Assembly: GCF_900188185.1 (NCBI RefSeq)
Contig: NZ_FZPA01000002.1
Location: 186,001 to 250,000, forward strand
DNA length: 64,000 nucleotides
Reading direction: 5' to 3'
Source of the DNA: Sphingopyxis indica
GTDB lineage: Bacteria > Pseudomonadota > Alphaproteobacteria > Sphingomonadales > Sphingomonadaceae
The notes under the pieces are model-generated. The model made no database searches, had not been told where the DNA came from, and saw nothing but the letters and a program-made list of their open reading frames with translations. The translations under genes were made by a program, and so were the position numbers. Of the stretch, positions 27,549 through 52,867 are shown in pieces (position 1 is the first letter of the stretch; each line of letters opens with the position of its first letter).

Positions 27549-28025
27549 TCAGAGGAACTCGATCTTCGTCACCAGATAATATTTGTCGCCCGCGGGCACG
27601 GTGACCTCGATCTCGTCGTCGACCTTGCGCCCGATCAGCGCGCGGCCGAGCGGCGAGTTGTAGCTGATCTTGCCCGCCTTGGCATCGGCTTCGGCCTGGC
27701 CGACGATCTGATATTTGACCGGCTTGTCGTCCTCGTCGGCGAGCGTCACGGTCGCACCGAACACGATGCGGTCGCCCGACAGCGTCGAGGGGTCGATGAT
27801 CTGCGCGCGCGACAGCTTGTCCTCGAGGTCGCCGATCGAGGCTTCGACCTGGCCCTGACGCTCTTTCGCGGCGTGATATTCGGCATTTTCGCTAAGGTCG
27901 CCGTGCGCGCGGGCTTCCTCGATCGCATCGACGATCTGCGGTCGCTCGGCCTTGAGAGCGGCGAGCTGCGCGCTCAGCTTCTCATAGCCTTCTGCCAGCA
28001 TCGGCACCTTTTCAACGCTTGCCAT
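27549..28025 (-). CDS. greA: Transcription elongation factor GreA
   Basis: A 158-residue GreA, which rescues backtracked RNA polymerase by stimulating transcript cleavage. The N-terminal coiled coil carries the acidic tip ([20 protein letters not shown]), and the C-terminal FKBP-like domain ends [10 protein letters not shown] chose ATG at 28025 ([10 protein letters not shown]), which matches the family start; an upstream in-frame ATG at 28046 adds seven residues. The order carB-greA-rhomboid on one strand suggests a common operon. Confidence 0.96.
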
Positions 28026-28121
28026 TATCCTGTTGTCCTTCGTCAATAATCCAGCACCAGCGAAGCTTCGCCGGGCGGCCAGGCCGCTGTTTCCGTCAAT
28101 GTCGGGGAGTGGAGCGGTGCC

Positions 28122-31100
28122 TCAATAATAGTCCTGAAGCGGCTTCACTTCAAGGGACCGTGCGCGCAGCGCCCCGATCGCCTCGGCCGCCGCCTCGCTC
28201 GCTGCGGCGGTCGTATAATAGGCGATGTCGGCGGCGAGCGCCGAAGCGCGGATCGACTGCGAATCCTGCAAGCTCTGCCATCCCTCGGTGGTGTTGAAGA
28301 TCAGCTGGACGTCGCCGTCCTTGATCCGGTCGACGATGTGCGGGCGCCCTTCGGCGACCTTGTTCACGCGCTCGACCGCGATTCCCTGCCCCGCCAGATA
28401 GTCGGCGGTGCCGCCGGTCGCGATCACCTGCCACCCCCAGTCGGCGAGCTTCCTCACTGCGGGCACGATGCGCGGCTTGTCGCTGTCCTTGACCGACACG
28501 AACAGCCGTCCGTCGGTCGGCAGGCGGTCGCCCGCGCCGAGCTGCGCCTTCGCAAAGGCAAGGTTGAAATCGCTGTCGATTCCCATGACTTCGCCGGTGG
28601 ACTTCATCTCGGGGCTGAGCACCGGGTCGGTGCCGGGAAAGCGCGCGAAGGGAAAGACCGCCTCTTTCACCGCAACATGCTTGATGTCGCGGTTGATCTT
28701 CGGCAGGTCGGCGAGCTTCTCGCCCGCCATCACCCGCGCCGCGATCTTGGCGATCGGCGATCCGACCGCCTTGGCGACGAAGGGCACCGTGCGGCTCGCG
28801 CGCGGGTTGACCTCGATCAGATAGACTTCCCCGTCCTTCACCGCATATTGCACGTTCATCAGCCCGCGCACGCCAAGCGCGCGCGCGAGCGCGTCGGTCT
28901 GGCGCTCGATCTCGGCGATGATGCCGGCGGGCAGGCTGTAGGGCGGGATCGAGCAGGCGCTGTCGCCCGAATGGACGCCGGCTTCCTCGATATGCTGGAG
29001 CACGCCCGCGACGACGACATCGGTTCCGTCGCACAGCGCATCGACGTCGACCTCGATCGCGTCGCGCAGATAGCGGTCGATCAGCACCGGCGAATCCCCC
29101 GACACCTGCACCGCGGTCTCGATGTAGTTTTCGAGCTGCGCCTGGTCGTCGACAATCTCCATGGCGCGGCCGCCGAGGACATAGCTCGGCCGGGTGAGCA
29201 CCGGATAGCCGATGCGCGACGCGACCGCGATCGCTTCCTCGCGGCTGCGCGCGATGCCATTCTCGGGCTGCTTCAGGCCCAGCCTGTTGACGAGCGCCGC
29301 AAAGCGTTCGCGGTCTTCGGCGAGGTCGATCGCGTCGGGCGAGGTGCCGAGGATCGGGATGCCCGCTTCCTCGAGCGCGCCCGCGAGCTTGAGCGGCGTC
29401 TGGCCGCCGAACTGAACGATCACCCCGGCGAGCGTGCCCTTCGACATTTCGACGTGCAATATTTCGAGCACATCCTCGACGGTCAGCGGCTCGAAATAGA
29501 GGCGGTCCGACGTGTCATAGTCGGTCGACACCGTCTCGGGGTTGCAGTTGACCATGATCGTTTCATAGCCCGCATCCTCGAGCGCGAAGCAGGCGTGACA
29601 ACAGCAATAATCGAACTCGATCCCCTGCCCGATCCGGTTCGGCCCGCCGCCGAGGATCACGACCTTCTTGCGGTCGGACGGATTGGCCTCATTCTCCGCC
29701 TCGCCAAAGCTCGGCGCTTCATAGGTCGAATAGAGATAGGGGGTCTGCGCCTGGAATTCGGCGGCGCAGGTGTCGATCGTCTTGTAGACCGGCCGCACGC
29801 CGAGCTTGTGGCGCAGCGCGCGCACCTCGGCCTCGGTAACGCCGCCGGTCATCGCCTTGACCGTTTCGTGGATCAGCCCGGTGCCGTGCGCGACGCCGCG
29901 CGCGCCATTGCGCAGATGCGCCGACTGGAGCGCCAGATAGGCGAGGCGCTTGTCCGAAAAGCCCATCGCCTTCAGTTTGCGCAGCCCCGCCGCGTCGCGC
30001 GGCAGGCCGTCCTTCATCACCGCATTTTCGGCGGCGACGATCTCCGCGATGCGCTCGAGGAACCACATGTCATAGCCCGCGATGCGGTTGATCTCTTCGA
30101 GCGCCAGCCCTTCGCGGATCGCCTGCGCGGCGTTGAGCAGCCGGTCGGGGGTGCGCCGCGCGAGCTCGCTCTTGAGCTGCTCGTGGCTCGCGCCGACCAG
30201 CCGGTCGACGAAGTTGAAGCCCGACAGCCCCGTTTCCAGCCCGCGCAGCGCCTTTTGCAACGATTCATGGATCGTGCGCCCGATCGCCATCACCTCGCCC
30301 ACCGACTTCATCGCGGTCGACAGCAGGGGTTCGGACCCCTTGAACTTTTCAAAGGCGAAGCGCGGGATCTTGGTGACGACATAATCGATCGTCGGCTCGA
30401 ACGACGCCGGGGTGACGCCGGTGATGTCGTTCATGATCTCGTCGAGCGTGTAGCCGACCGCGAGCTTCGCCGCGACCTTGGCGATCGGGAAGCCCGTCGC
30501 CTTCGACGCAAGCGCCGACGACCGCGACACGCGCGGGTTCATCTCGATCACGATCAGGCGGCCGTCCTTCGGATTGACCGCGAACTGGACGTTCGACCCG
30601 CCGGTTTCGACCCCGATCTCGCGCAGCACCGCGATGCTGGCGCCCCGCATGATCTGATATTCCTTGTCGGTCAGCGTCAGCGCCGGGGCGACGGTGATGC
30701 TGTCGCCGGTATGGACGCCCATCGGATCGACATTCTCGATCGAACAGATGATGATGCAATTGTCCTTGCGGTCGCGCACCACCTCCATCTCATATTCTTT
30801 CCAGCCGAGGAGCGATTCCTCGATCAGGACCTCGGTGGTGGGCGAGGCGATCAGGCCGCCGCGGACGATATGCTCGAACTCCTCGCGGTTATACGCGATG
30901 CCGCCGCCGGTGCCGCCGAGCGTGAAGCTCGGGCGGATGATCGCGGGCAGGCCGGTGCGTTCGAGCACCGCAAACGCCTCGTCGAGCGTGTGCGCGACGC
31001 CCGAGCGCGCGCTTTCGAGCCCGATCTTGTCCATCGCGTCGCGGAACTTCTGCCGGTCCTCGGCCTTGTCGATCGCCTCGGCATCCGCGCCGATCATCTC

Positions 31101-31454
31101 GACGCCATATTTCGCAAGCGTGCCGTCCTGCGCGAGCGCGAGCGCGGTGTTGAGCGCGGTCTGCCCGCCCATCGTCGGCAGCACCGCCCAGCCACCCGGA
31201 AACGCGGCGGTCTCCTTTTCGATGATCTTCGCGACGATCTCGGGCGTGATCGGCTCGACATAGGTCGCGTCGGCAAGGTCGGGATCGGTCATGATCGTCG
31301 CCGGGTTGGAGTTGACGAGGACGATGCGATAGCCCTCCTCCTTCAGCGCCTTGATCGCCTGCGTCCCCGAATAGTCGAACTCGCATGCCTGACCGATAAC
31401 GATCGGGCCGGCGCCGATGACGAGGATGGATTGGATGTCGGTTCTTTTGGGCAT
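28122..31454 (-). CDS. carB: Carbamoyl-phosphate synthase large subunit
   Basis: A 1110-residue CarB, which makes carbamoyl phosphate from bicarbonate, ammonia (from CarA) and two ATP for arginine and pyrimidine synthesis. Both ATP-grasp halves are intact (N-half from [21 protein letters not shown]-half from [15 protein letters not shown]), and the C-terminal MGS-like allosteric domain is present. The ATG at 31454 lies 3 bp after the stop of the inserted unknown ORF. The sequence just before it (GGAAC only) is a poor ribosome binding site, so carB may depend on coupling to that ORF. Confidence 0.98.
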
Positions 31455-31457
31455 TAT

Positions 31458-32237
31458 CTATTTAGTTCCAAAGATTTTGATTAACTCGGCCACCAGCTGA
31501 GACGCTAAAGCGCCGATCGCTTCTTTCTCATATCGCTTCGCCAAGAATGTCAGCGTTTCGACGAGCGCTAACTGCAGAAGATAAACGCGAGCACAACCTG
31601 CTCGGATTAGTTCTCGCCCCGCCTTCAGTTGGCCCAGAATCTGTTCTCGCAATCCAGGCGTCTGATCAATCGAATTTTCCTTCGATACTAGATCGATAAT
31701 CTCCGTCGATTTTTTGCTAAGGCTCTCAACCTGATTGTGGGAAAATTGGACTACTCGATCACTAGCGAACGCTCGGTCGCTGTGTTCCAACCGAAGTGCC
31801 TCTAACGCATCTTCGTCCATCTGACGCAAAGCCTCCATTGCGTCAAAAATGTAGTCCTCACCGTTACGGGCATAAGCGCAGAGAATGCGGAGAGAGGATC
31901 CATAACTCTTTAATTCGTCAAAACCCTCGCTCTTATCCTCATCACTGACCTCGTCCTTGAAGTAATAGGTGAAATTGTCGTCATTTACTGTCCAGTATCC
32001 GCCGGTGGCTGGGCTATGCTCCAAATCAGATATTGCAAAATACTCCAGCGCCTCCAGGACCGATTCAACCTCAGACGAATCAGCCCGAAAGGCGAATCTC
32101 TCCCAAATGAGGTCCGCAATTTTTTTCGCAGATCCCGCGCATCGACCGAGCTTCTTCGCTCGAATTGTTCGACGCCCGCTATCCTCCGCTTCAATTTGGA
32201 TCATGGCAGCAGCCAAATATTGCTCTAACGCGTTCAA
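31458..32237 (-). CDS. Unknown protein inserted between carA and carB
   Basis: About 259 residues; no family recognised. Base composition is visibly lower in GC than carA and carB on either side, and codon use includes many A/T-ending codons, which suggests recent acquisition. The start is uncertain: TTG at 32237 has a GGGGG stretch upstream and is preferred, ATG at 32204 is an alternative, and an open frame extends to 32291 inside the carA end. The protein looks soluble and helical, with an acidic middle (NDDNFTYYFKDEVSDEDKSE) and a C-terminal amphipathic helix pair ending AELIKIFGTK. It has no signal peptide or catalytic motif I can name. It sits 34 bp after the carA stop and 3 bp before carB. 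Confidence 0.8.
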   Translation of the reverse strand: MNALEQYLAAAMIQIEAEDSGRRTIRAKKLGRCAGSAKKIADLIWERFAFRADSSEVESVLEALEYFAISDLEHSPATGGYWTVNDDNFTYYFKDEVSDEDKSEGFDELKSYGSSLRILCAYARNGEDYIFDAMEALRQMDEDALEALRLEHSDRAFASDRVVQFSHNQVESLSKKSTEIIDLVSKENSIDQTPGLREQILGQLKAGRELIRAGCARVYLLQLALVETLTFLAKRYEKEAIGALASQLVAELIKIFGTK

Positions 32238-32271
32238 CTCAGCAGCCCCCGTAAGAGAAAAATACCAGCAA

Positions 32272-33531
32272 TCACTCCAACCCACCCACAAACTTCTCGA
32301 ACAGATAGAAGCTATCCTGCGGCCCCGGGCTCGCTTCGGGGTGATATTGCACGCTGAACGCCTTCTTCCCCGTGATCGCGATGCCGCAGTTCGATCCGTC
32401 GAACAGGCTCTTGTGCGTCTCGACCACGCCCGCGGGCAGCGTCGAGGCGTCGACAGCGAAGCCGTGGTTCATGCTGGTGATCTCGACCACGCCGTCTTCC
32501 GCGCGCTGCACCGGATGGTTCGCGCCGCGGTGGCCCTGGTGCATCTTCACCGTTTTTGCCCCCGCCGCGATCGCGAGCATCTGGTGGCCGAGGCAGATGC
32601 CGAAGATCGGCACGTCGCGCTCCAGCAGCCCCCGGATCACCGGCACCGCATAGGCGCCCGTCGCCGCGGGGTCGCCGGGGCCGTTCGACAGGAACACCCC
32701 CGCGGGTTCGAGCGCGAGCACTTCGTCGAGGCTCGCGGTCGCGGGCACCACGGTGACGCGTGCGCCGGCCTTCACCAGATTGCGGAAGATATTGTCCTTC
32801 GCGCCATAGTCGACCGCGACGACATGGGGGCGATCATCTCCCCTCCCGCTTGCGGGAGGGGTCGGGGGAGGGCCTGTTTCGGTGGAGGCGGAGGTCGACA
32901 TGCCCTCCCCTAGCCCCTCCCGCAAGCGGGAGGGGGACTGGTAGCCCTTGCCCAATTCCCATGTCCCCGCGTCCCAGTCGCCGATGTCGCCGCGGCTGAC
33001 CTCCTTCGCCAGATCCATCCCCTCGAGCCCCGGCCAGCCGCGCGCCATGGCGAGCAGCTCGTCGATATCGAACTTGCCGTCCGCGCTGTGCGCGATCACC
33101 CCGTTCGGCGCCCCCGCATCGCGGATGCGCCGCGTGAGCGCGCGCGTGTCGATGCCGGCGAGGCCGATCAGCCCTTGCGATTCCATCCATTCGGGCAGCG
33201 GCATATGGCTGCGGAAATTGCTGGGCGCGGTCGGCAGCTCGCGCGTGATCGCGCCGATCGCCGCACGCCGGTCGCGCTCGACATCCTCGGGGTTCGCGCC
33301 GACATTGCCGATATGCGGAAAGGTGAAGGTGACGATCTGCCCCGCATAGCTCGGATCGGTCAGTATCTCCTGATAGCCGGTCATCGAGGTGTTGAAGCAG
33401 ATTTCGCCGACCCCGGCGCCGGTCGCGCCATAGCCCTGCCCCCAGACGATCGTGCCGTCGGCAAGGACAAGGACGCCCGTTGCGCCGGCGGGCTGGGTTT
33501 CGGGCGTGGCTTTGGGCGTGGCGGGGGCCAT
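32272..33531 (-). CDS. carA: Carbamoyl-phosphate synthase small subunit, with translated repeat insertion
   Basis: A 419-residue glutamine amidotransferase subunit. The N-domain starts after ATG at 33531 (MAPATPKATP). The class I GATase domain has the nucleophile cysteine in FGICLGHQ and the His/Glu pair in SVQYHPEAS. Between the domains, residues about 199-231 read [13 protein letters not shown]... to ...PPASGRGDD; this stretch is a complete 96-bp family A palindromic repeat translated in frame. The insertion lengthens the linker by about 32 residues relative to typical CarA and leaves catalytic motifs intact. CGGAGC precedes the start. Confidence 0.96.
   Translation of the reverse strand: MAPATPKATPETQPAGATGVLVLADGTIVWGQGYGATGAGVGEICFNTSMTGYQEILTDPSYAGQIVTFTFPHIGNVGANPEDVERDRRAAIGAITRELPTAPSNFRSHMPLPEWMESQGLIGLAGIDTRALTRRIRDAGAPNGVIAHSADGKFDIDELLAMARGWPGLEGMDLAKEVSRGDIGDWDAGTWELGKGYQSPSRLREGLGEGMSTSASTETGPPPTPPASGRGDDRPHVVAVDYGAKDNIFRNLVKAGARVTVVPATASLDEVLALEPAGVFLSNGPGDPAATGAYAVPVIRGLLERDVPIFGICLGHQMLAIAAGAKTVKMHQGHRGANHPVQRAEDGVVEITSMNHGFAVDASTLPAGVVETHKSLFDGSNCGIAITGKKAFSVQYHPEASPGPQDSFYLFEKFVGGLE
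32840..32935. repeat. Family A paired palindrome inside the carA coding sequence
   Basis: Stems CCCCTCCCGC(TT/AA)GCGGGAGGGG lie at 32840-32861 and 32914-32935, exactly as in the intergenic copies. The element is 96 bp, a multiple of three, and has no stop codon in the carA frame, so it is read through. Confidence 0.93.
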
Positions 33532-33662
33532 TTTTGATGCTCCGGTCGGAAGGCTAAACGGCCGACCAACTAGTAAGCAAAAAAGTGATTCACAAGCTAT
33601 CGGATTATGAATCTTGTCGCTAAAGAGACTTCTTTCCGAAATGGCAGCGCATGGGGACACGC

Positions 33663-34115: not shown

Positions 34116-34143
34116 GCTTCCGGCAAGCGCTGTCCTCCCTTGG

Positions 34144-34211
34144 CCCTGCTCGCAAGCGGGAAGGGAGCAACGGCAGCGATCTTACTTCTCCCCTCCCGCT
34201 TGCGGGAGGGG
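34144..34211. repeat. Family A paired palindrome, one arm degraded
   Basis: The right stem at 34190-34211 is perfect; the left stem at 34144-34165 (CCCTGCTCGCAAGCGGGAAG) has mismatches, so this copy seems older. It lies between yqeY and the DUF559 gene. Confidence 0.8.
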
Positions 34212-34235
34212 TCGGGGGTGGGCATACGCCCTAGG

Positions 34236-34628
34236 ATGGACGGACAGTTTCAGCCCCGCGACACGCCGCGCGCCAGGGAGTTGCGCAACGCCGCCACGCC
34301 AGCCGAGCGAACGCTGTGGCGCTGCCTATCGCGACGAAAAGTCGCTGGTTGGAAATTCAGCCGCCAAATGCCCGTCGGCCCCTATTTTGCCGATTTCCTT
34401 TGCCGCGAAGCCCATTTGGTCATCGAACTGGACGGACATTCGCACGACATGCGCCAAACCCATGACGTACATCGCGACAATTGGCTGACGGAAAGCGGCT
34501 ACCGAGTCCTTTGCTTTACGAACAGCGATGTGATGGGAAATATAGACGGCGTGGTGCGCGAGATCGAGCGGCAGCTTGCCCATCTGCCCACCCCTAACCC
34601 CTCCCGCAAGCGGGAGGGGGACATATGA
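34236..34628 (+). CDS. DUF559 (VSR-like endonuclease fold) protein
   Basis: A 130-residue DUF559 protein. The family shares the fold of very-short-patch-repair endonucleases, and its role is not known. Motifs are RELRNAATPAERTLWRCLSR at the start, FRRQ-type FSRQMPVGPYFADFLC, and the acidic core HLVIELDGHSH with a following VLCFTNSDV. The start ATG at 34236 is just beyond a family A repeat. The last about 14 residues ([13 protein letters not shown]) are translated from the next family A repeat, so the natural stop has probably been replaced by the element. Confidence 0.88.
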   Translation: MDGQFQPRDTPRARELRNAATPAERTLWRCLSRRKVAGWKFSRQMPVGPYFADFLCREAHLVIELDGHSHDMRQTHDVHRDNWLTESGYRVLCFTNSDVMGNIDGVVREIERQLAHLPTPNPSRKREGDI

Positions 34629-34669
34629 CCGCGAACGTGACTCTTCTCCCCTCCCGCTTGCGGGAGGGG
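34598..34669. repeat. Family A paired palindrome at the DUF559 3' end, upstream of dnaG
   Basis: Stems at 34598-34619 and 34648-34669. The left stem overlaps the final codons of the DUF559 gene; the right stem ends 23 bp before the dnaG start. The frame of dnaG is open through the element but the true start lies after it. Confidence 0.9.
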
Positions 34670-34692
34670 TTGGGGGTGGGCATGCCACGCTG

Positions 34693-52598: not shown

Positions 52599-52867
52599 TC
52601 GAGGGGCTGTCGGGCACCGCCGCGAATGTCATCGGGCTGGTCGGCACGGCCTGCGTGCTCGCAGCCTTCGCCTATATCAACCTGACCGCAAAGCCCAACG
52701 GAGTGCTGTTCAACGCCGCGAACCTGATCGGTGCGTTGCTGCTGATGATCTCGCTGCTCGTCCACTTCAACCTTGCCTCCTTCCTGCTCGAGATCGCGTG
52801 GGCGAGCATTGCGCTCTGGGGTCTCGCGCGGGCCCTCTACAAAAAGGATAATGGAGGCGCGGCATGA
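52595..52867 (+). CDS. Small membrane protein (CBU_0592-like)
   Basis: A 90-residue protein with three predicted transmembrane helices (about 10-29, 38-55 and 60-78: [59 protein letters not shown]). It resembles the CBU_0592 group of small membrane proteins of unknown function. It is coupled to aroA upstream (ATGA) and to cmk downstream (ATGA), so it is firmly part of this operon. Confidence 0.85.

Follow-up and report, generated by a model that had tools for sequence, protein, structure and literature searches.

Variable genes between carA and carB in sphingomonads, including an apparently undescribed family of predicted two-part proteins

Introduction

The carA-carB intergenic region of Neisseria consists of long, variable, repeat-rich non-coding DNA. 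Two other bacteria have been described with an open reading frame (ORF) at this position. According to the available portions of the source, Xanthomonas citri carries the operon carA-orf-carB-greA-rpfE, in which the 444 bp ORF shares one base with carA and, as judged by RT-PCR, is transcribed together with the car genes (PMC4619228). The same portions cite a carA-orf-carB-greA arrangement for Pseudomonas aeruginosa, whose ORF is not similar to that of X. citri (PMC4619228). The available portions of two further papers (PMC6245113; PMC4997734) make no mention of a cargo slot between carA and carB. Likewise, we found no description of such a slot in sphingomonads, or of its protein families, in the literature searched, a scope that lacks most subscription journals.

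Here we examine the carA-carB junction of Sphingopyxis indica within a stretch of 64,000 nucleotides (contig NZ_FZPA01000002.1, positions 186,001 to 250,000), hereafter termed the window, together with the equivalent junctions of related genomes. The explanation that best accounts for the observations as a whole is that this junction serves as a coupled, allele-swapping cargo slot, which in the window holds a recognition-type protein. We regard this explanation as about evenly poised between right and wrong.

Results

A gene placed between carA and carB in the window

The features of the window that are relevant to this junction, all of which lie on the minus strand, are as follows.

27549..28046, minus strand: greA ORF; carB-greA is the constant control junction
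28122..31454, minus strand: carB, the neighbor on the downstream side, with its ATG 3 nt past the cargo stop
31458..32237, minus strand: slot cargo gene, 259 amino acids, TTG start, TAG stop, a member of the PASDR family (from the ORF list and homologues)
32234..32275, minus strand: 13-codon ORF (GTG to TGA) that overlaps the carA stop (GTGA) and the cargo start (TTGA) (from reading the sequence)
32272..33660, minus strand: carA ORF, the neighbor on the upstream side, with a likely ATG start near 33531 and a stop that overlaps the 13-codon ORF

A first-pass annotation had pointed to a lower-GC ORF wedged between carA and carB with gaps of 34 and 3 bp, and had considered carB to be without a good ribosome binding site. 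Both descriptions hold. The cargo ORF comprises 259 codons plus TAG and, with the carA stop at 32272-32274 and the carB ATG at 31454, it is separated by 34 bp from carA and by 3 bp from carB. The GC content of the junction is 0.49 versus 0.64 for the initial 400 bp of carB. The TTG start of the cargo gene matches the start of a homologue, L131 (LNALEQYLAA versus MSTFAQYLAV). No Shine-Dalgarno consensus is present in the sequence preceding carB (...TTTGGAACTAAATAGATA, followed directly by ATG), and therefore coupling by re-initiation is plausible. A scan of positions 31300-32400 found no promoter-like site, and yielded three terminator-like sites (shuffled mean 0.9), of which one lies on the coding strand.

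The same annotation had suggested that carB may be coupled to the cargo gene, and the sequence places this gene as if it were coupled to both neighbors, because its start and stop codons overlap or abut adjacent reading frames, as is the case for coupled operon genes. The ORF that opens at position -4, inside carA, is only 13 codons long in the window. If this short ORF is translated, then carA, the mini-ORF, the cargo gene and carB would form a chain with no untranslated stretch longer than 3 nt. The 13-codon ORF is possibly a coupling leader, or possibly the leftover of an earlier cargo gene.

The cargo gene is the sole long ORF of the junction, where the remaining ORFs are nested ones of 69-70 amino acids and antisense ones. 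A toxin-antitoxin partner gene is absent from the window junction, which thus does not hold the two adjacent genes of a type II system. Similarly, no integrase or transposase was found at this site, as the cargo gene is its only gene-sized co-directional ORF and carries no such Pfam match. A chance ORF can be ruled out, as homologues that are read in the same frame and share invariant residues occur in 17 genera.

A probably soluble protein with unequally conserved halves

Database searches place the window protein in no known family. Nothing above the curated cut-off was obtained from Pfam, including no match to MarR, HxlR or PadR families in Pfam or NCBIfam, and searches of NCBIfam and PADLOC-DB 2.0.0 returned no match at E values up to 10. 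PHROG yielded two weak matches of unknown function (E 0.008 and 0.04). No relatives of the full protein on plasmids, phages or viral contigs were matched; the C-terminal fragment of homologue L144 gave one plasmid match and no phage match. The gene is present as a single copy in its own genome. A relative of solved structure was sought by PDB sequence search, and the best match (E 0.15) was unconvincing. Membrane segments usually exceed a hydropathy threshold of 1.6, and the maximum 19-residue hydropathy of the window protein is 1.46. A membrane anchor was rejected on this basis, and the protein is probably soluble.

Structure prediction and family alignments divide the protein into the following parts.

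31842..32237, minus strand: hypervariable N-part, residues 1-132, predicted to be winged-helix-like (AlphaFold model and shuffled-baseline identity)
31731..31769, minus strand: motif region FASDRVVQFSHNQ, residues 157-169 (family alignments)
31464..31739, minus strand: more constant C-domain, residues 167-258, predicted four-helix bundle (model and pairwise identity)

The AlphaFold model of the window protein, built from a 14-row alignment (pLDDT 83.2, pTM 0.56), predicts an N-part of helices plus a two-stranded wing, followed by four helices spanning residues 167-258. A model of a second member, L134 (pLDDT 79.6, pTM 0.49), has its elements in the same order. The predicted N-part of L134 aligns best with MarR-type chains at Z 11.0 (rmsd 4.0, 91 residues aligned), and that of the window protein reaches a best Z of 7.1 (rmsd 2.9, 87 residues aligned), the latter score being below the trust level of the tool. 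Foldseek searches against PDB and viral libraries returned nothing at an E value of 0.001 or better. The structural scores of the window N-part and bundle may reflect only a common arrangement.

The two halves differ in how well they are conserved. Among 29 non-duplicate family members (406 pairs; duplicates L135, L137, L136, L139 and L013 excluded), the mean identity is 0.315 for the C-part and 0.236 for the N-part, where the window N-part carried 18 extra upstream codons, versus 0.225 (sd 0.040) for shuffled N-parts. Even the 12 pairs whose C-parts are at least 0.5 identical have N-parts with a mean identity of 0.25 and a maximum of 0.34, and members L130 and L132 share 75% of their C-part residues and 26% of their N-part residues. 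Diversifying pressure on the N-part would be expected to produce such a contrast, as would its exchange as a cassette between carA and the constant C-part. Two members of another slot family (L067 and L085) also appear, by eye, to carry unlike N-parts ahead of a common C-part.

Occupancy of the carA-carB junction in relatives

To see how widely this junction is occupied, 60 genomes of the genus were surveyed, of which 57 have a carB match and 53 have a measurable junction (the seven excluded have no carB match or only contig-edge fragments). The carA-carB gap ranges from 2 to 1596 bp with a median of 439 bp, and spans 200 bp or more in 49 of the 53 junctions and 124 bp or less in the other four. 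At least 288 of 298 family genomes matched a joined carA/carB query. For the 36 with both ends among the matches listed, the gap is at least 301 bp in 23, 52-101 bp in two and at most 2 bp in 11. Further junctions fetched regardless of gap, each with one end among the matches listed and two of them from the same genus, have 200 bp or more in 32 of 41 cases. Both family sets favor genomes with window-like carA or carB genes. Empty slots therefore exist, as evident by the four short genus junctions and the 11 family junctions of at most 2 bp.

At the level of the class, 43 measurable pairs from 72 genomes include 26 with gaps of at most 20 bp, eight of 63-184 bp and nine of at least 235 bp, a last group that includes the window and one other family member. 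From these counts, the slot is concentrated in the Sphingomonadaceae, with scattered cases outside. The earlier statement that carA and carB are normally adjacent thus applies to a large share of the class, this genus being an exception, and its suggestion that relatives might carry other cargo at the same spot is borne out by the 49 genus junctions and the 32 further ones noted above.

Many of these inserts share the placement expected for coupled genes. When the longest co-directional ORF was chosen without a bonus for coupling positions, it starts at -4, which is 4 nt inside carA and the commonest start position, in 31 of 49 junctions. Its end falls between -9 and +17 relative to the carB start in 44, and 27 junctions combine this start with such an end. 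With such a bonus, 36 of 49 start at -4 and 30 end at +1. Mechanical clustering of the bonus-picked ORFs gave 24 clusters. Two of these clusters (seven ORFs) are antisense readings of FitAB or DUF559 genes, and some singletons may not be genes (the L056 ORF at +208 and the second ORF of L049).

Three nearby junctions served as controls. Across 26 genus genomes, carB-greA measures 95-100 bp in all 25 cases measured, whereas carA-carB in the same genomes spans 2-1540 bp, with 23 at 227 bp or more. The cmk-rpsA junction is 164-485 bp in 20 of 23 genomes and about 1.6 kb in three. The aroA-cmk junction is a 4-nt overlap in 15 of 22 genomes and holds inserts of 265-927 bp in the other seven. Therefore, although carA-carB is by far the most variable of the four junctions compared, it is extreme rather than unique.

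One reading of this diversity is that the junction is simply permissive, such that every ORF compatible with carB translation is tolerated. The cargo would then be largely neutral or ORFan-like and lack a common role, and would vary under relaxed constraint, not selection. The existence of 24 mechanical clusters with few Pfam matches among 53 genus junctions fits this reading, as do the inserts at aroA-cmk. However, the ORFs opened at -4 in 43 junctions have a median length of 119 codons versus 30 in dinucleotide-shuffled junctions, and in 31 of the 43 the observed length was reached by at most five of 100 shuffles. Moreover, the slot is filled in 49 of 53 genus junctions, and the persistence of slot families across genera with invariant residues suggests that constraint acts on them. 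We consider a purely permissive junction fairly unlikely, and favor a coupled slot whose cargo is exchanged.

The aroA-cmk junction is a lesser insertion site in its own right (window 52599-52863; L220-L223). Among five inserts examined there, four (L220-L223) encode similar predicted secreted proteins, three of which start 4 nt inside aroA.

The PASDR family and its location

The family to which the window gene belongs appears to be undescribed and to reside mostly between carA and carB. Its consensus is PASDRxVxxxHNQ, in which Asp160 and Arg161 are invariant in alignments A1, A3 and A4; variants of the motif elsewhere in the family include AAGR (L123 and L126) and PATNR (L217). A search with the single window sequence matched nine of 298 family genomes, its own included. 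Profile A1, built from 11 sequences, matched 18 of 298 genomes in 17 genera. Nine of the A1 rows derive from the first nine genomes, the window's own among them, which therefore match by construction; the other nine matches are new. Examination of the surrounding ORFs revealed that all 18 matches sit between carA and carB. The window gene has the three properties used to define the slot family (an A1 match, the Asp-Arg of the motif and the carA-carB position), and the family as such rests on the other rows of A1 plus the nine further matches.

A closer alignment, used to scan named genomes, placed 13 of 13 loci at carA-carB, four of them on contigs already counted, judging by their equal lengths. 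The hosts range from Sphingomonas, Novosphingobium, Sphingobium and Sphingorhabdus to a Rhodospirillaceae metagenome assembly. In class-level searches, A1 matched four of 289 genomes and a C-domain profile six of 240. Besides the window, these matches are two genes between carA and carB (G414 and G466), one (G489) downstream of carA with another ORF intervening, on a contig that ends before carB, and two at unrelated loci (G473 and, weakly, G091). A gene with PATNR in place of PASDR (G354) was found by position alone. Members L048 and L088 were sampled from junctions, and so they are uninformative on where the family is located.

The C-part therefore has some relatives outside the slot, namely those in G473 and G091 and one on Bradyrhizobium elkanii plasmid NZ_CP126030.1 (L206 5386-6321), the last separated by 19 bp from a dCTP deaminase gene upstream of it. 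Genes for a nucleotide pyrophosphohydrolase and a uracil-DNA glycosylase are also near this plasmid gene. The C-terminal part of the G091 gene, which lies away from carAB (L227 5080-5628), weakly resembles the PASDR C-part, and its N-part resembles, by eye, the DUF1508-type start of L067, a hint of wider shuffling of N-parts and C-parts.

Two outcomes that would have spoken against the cargo interpretation of the first-pass annotation were not observed. An ordinary metabolic gene with homologues at many loci was considered, and no such matches occur among those examined. Nor is the same gene conserved at the junction throughout the family, because only 18 of 298 genomes carry it.

The strong association of the PASDR family with carA-carB could also mean that gene position reflects function. 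The protein might regulate carbamoyl-phosphate synthetase (CPSase) or the car operon, with the N-part binding DNA or RNA near carA, or the bundle binding CarA or CarB, and thereby tune the supply of carbamoyl phosphate. The resemblance of the predicted L134 winged helix to MarR-type chains would suit such a role, and the Bradyrhizobium plasmid relative likewise neighbors a gene for a pyrimidine enzyme. A regulator of a conserved operon, however, should conserve its recognition part, yet the N-part is precisely the part of the protein that varies, and few family genomes carry the gene. Furthermore, slot families that are unrelated to this one, including one that resembles lipoproteins, likewise occur mostly at carA-carB, and thus position alone does not imply a function connected with CPSase. 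We judge a regulatory role to be unlikely, and the coupled exchange slot to be the better account of the position of the gene.

Proposed exchange of cargo, and other occupants of the slot

If cargo is exchanged, then junctions whose flanks are nearly the same might hold different genes. For 16 pairs of occupied genus junctions whose carB 5′ DNA is at least 97% identical, 10 pairs share less than 10% of their cargo DNA and two share more than 50%. Unrelated cargo next to near-identical carB ends is the basis on which we propose exchange, although repeated independent gain and loss fits as well.

Five other slot families behave similarly with respect to location. A joined search of the 60 genus genomes gave 34 matches, 28 of them at carA-carB (five being the source loci of the queries), and the six matches elsewhere are weak (29-43% identity). 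Slot families are therefore rarely found elsewhere in the same genomes. This confinement seems to fit exchange via flanking homology better than it fits random landing.

The occupants are diverse in type. Among 68 slot representatives, Pfam recognizes RraB (7), DUF6680 (4), DUF1508 (1) and DUF695 (1), plus three further single matches with E values of 0.003-0.008. By eye, many other slot proteins are lipoprotein-like or combine a winged helix with a membrane helix. PADLOC revealed nothing convincing among the 68 proteins (19 models at E values of at most 0.1, each with one member, best E 0.0028). The locus is not devoted to conflict alone, because several cargo types are lipoprotein- or RraB-like.

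Genes of the kind that take part in conflicts are nevertheless present in relatives. Within 138 distinct junction loci, some of which had been picked because they have a large gap or a homologue (the incomplete L187 was excluded), antisense FitA/PIN pairs occur at eight and antisense DUF559 ORFs at 11. Pfam confirmed all junction copies tested (PIN 4 of 4, FitA RHH 2 of 2, DUF559 3 of 3). DUF559-like ORFs also lie between carA and carB, as seen by eye, in two other families of the class (L214 and L216). The first-pass annotation had proposed a niche for defense or addiction genes, and these elements agree with that proposal for the locus, but the window gene itself has neither a PADLOC match nor a partner gene.

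Remnants of the carB 5′ end, 12-39 codons in length, were found in eight genomes, seven of which have FitAB or DUF559 genes; the four shortest, at 12-16 codons, match carB weakly. These duplicated carB 5′ ends (L051, L052, L075, L091, L160, L162, L182 and L192) are located upstream of FitAB, DUF559 or a second cargo gene, as if insertion had rebuilt the start of carB. Conceivably, the 5′ end of carB is a homing target for DUF559 or toxin-antitoxin elements, with repair and deletion bringing or leaving other ORFs, so that the site would owe its variability to the elements and not to the cargo. This view is consistent with the numbers of such elements, with the seven of eight remnant junctions in which they follow the remnant, and with the DUF559-like genes of the two other class families, but most of the 138 loci, the window included, hold no element or remnant and DUF559 ORFs also occur elsewhere (e.g. 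window 34140-34625), so we deem this very unlikely.

Another junction, in a different family of the class, carries between carA and carB an antisense ORF judged by eye to be Fic-like from its motif, along with a small partner ORF (L218 342-1218, genome G378).

Separate observations concern repeats in the vicinity of the window genes. The carA coding sequence contains an in-frame palindromic repeat (window 32827-32947) with 50-nt arms that are 82% complementary, which adds about 33 residues, and a pattern search found similar inserts in 10 of 51 genus carA sequences examined. Copies of the same repeat flank a DUF559 endonuclease ORF (34140-34625, Pfam E 4e-35) located between a yqeY-like gene and dnaG (window 34131-34683). 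This ORF and its flanking repeats are possibly a small mobile unit.

Discussion

The position of the cargo, its diversity, the codon overlaps and the pattern of constant and variable protein parts are direct observations. To connect them, we propose that the slot ORF is transcribed together with the car genes and that its translation is coupled to that of both neighbors, often through a 4-nt overlap with carA and a stop that touches the carB start. Under such an arrangement, a nonsense or frameshift mutation in the cargo would lower carB translation, and for this reason cargo would mostly be exchanged and seldom lost. Exchange would proceed by homologous recombination via the conserved carA and carB genes, which would explain why cargo families stay at the locus.

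The occupant of the window would be a soluble protein of two parts, a hypervariable winged-helix-like N-part and a more constant bundle headed by the PASDR motif, although its folds and solubility are predictions. Because the constant C-part lies beside carB, it could be used as a homology arm, allowing the N-part to be swapped alone. The N-part would recognize a fast-changing target, for example nucleic acid or protein of a phage or another foreign source, whereas the C-part would serve as an invariant output or assembly module. This division into target recognition and output is the most likely one for the protein.

With its more constant C-domain and a recognition-type part whose identity has fallen to background, the PASDR family is a clear candidate for an arms-race protein. 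A conflict function for the window gene is plausible and is the weakest step of the explanation; it is suggested by hypervariability, patchy distribution, modular build, and the toxin-antitoxin and endonuclease genes in the slots of relatives. An even more specific version is that carA-carB is a dedicated, idiomorphic-like conflict locus, where modular recognition proteins of this and parallel families, toxin-antitoxin pairs and endonucleases replace each other as alleles and coupling keeps the slot filled. We regard this version as possible but rather unlikely. If true, immune specificities would be exchanged through housekeeping genes with no mobile element involved.

If the slot works as proposed, then an essential operon holds exchangeable small genes that are hard to lose by simple mutation, in a holding site that operates without integrases or transposons. 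The locus, short enough for PCR, could also be mined for new small proteins, and would allow a direct test of the idea that accessory genes are stabilized by coupling to an essential gene.

Among known systems, FitAB modules (VapBC-type) occupy the same slot in eight related genomes, but these consist of two genes antisense to carAB, whereas the window gene is single, co-directional and partnerless. Regulators of the MarR, HxlR and PadR type may share a winged-helix arrangement with the predicted N-part of the family. Unlike these regulators, the window protein has a separate four-helix bundle, the PASDR motif and a hypervariable N-part. The predicted C-domain aligns with PA2107 (Z 8.3, rmsd 2.8, 89 residues aligned), bAvd (Z 7.7, rmsd 3.0, 90 aligned) and an S23-family chain (Z 7.6, rmsd 3.3, 92 aligned), Z values that are common for helical bundles. 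Since bundles reach such scores by chance, we claim no relationship to YicC or bAvd.

At the level of the locus, Neisseria likewise has long and variable sequence between carA and carB, but this consists of non-coding repeats rather than coupled ORFs. The arrangements of X. citri and P. aeruginosa resemble that of the window in having a co-directional ORF between carA and carB, as far as the available portions of their description extend (PMC4619228), a resemblance that concerns gene arrangement. That description, in the same portions, gives one ORF per species, with no survey, hypervariability or locus-restricted families (PMC4619228). The carA-orf-carB arrangement is thus a known curiosity, and it is the hypervariable, locus-restricted slot of the sphingomonads, together with the PASDR family, that appears to be undescribed in the literature searched.
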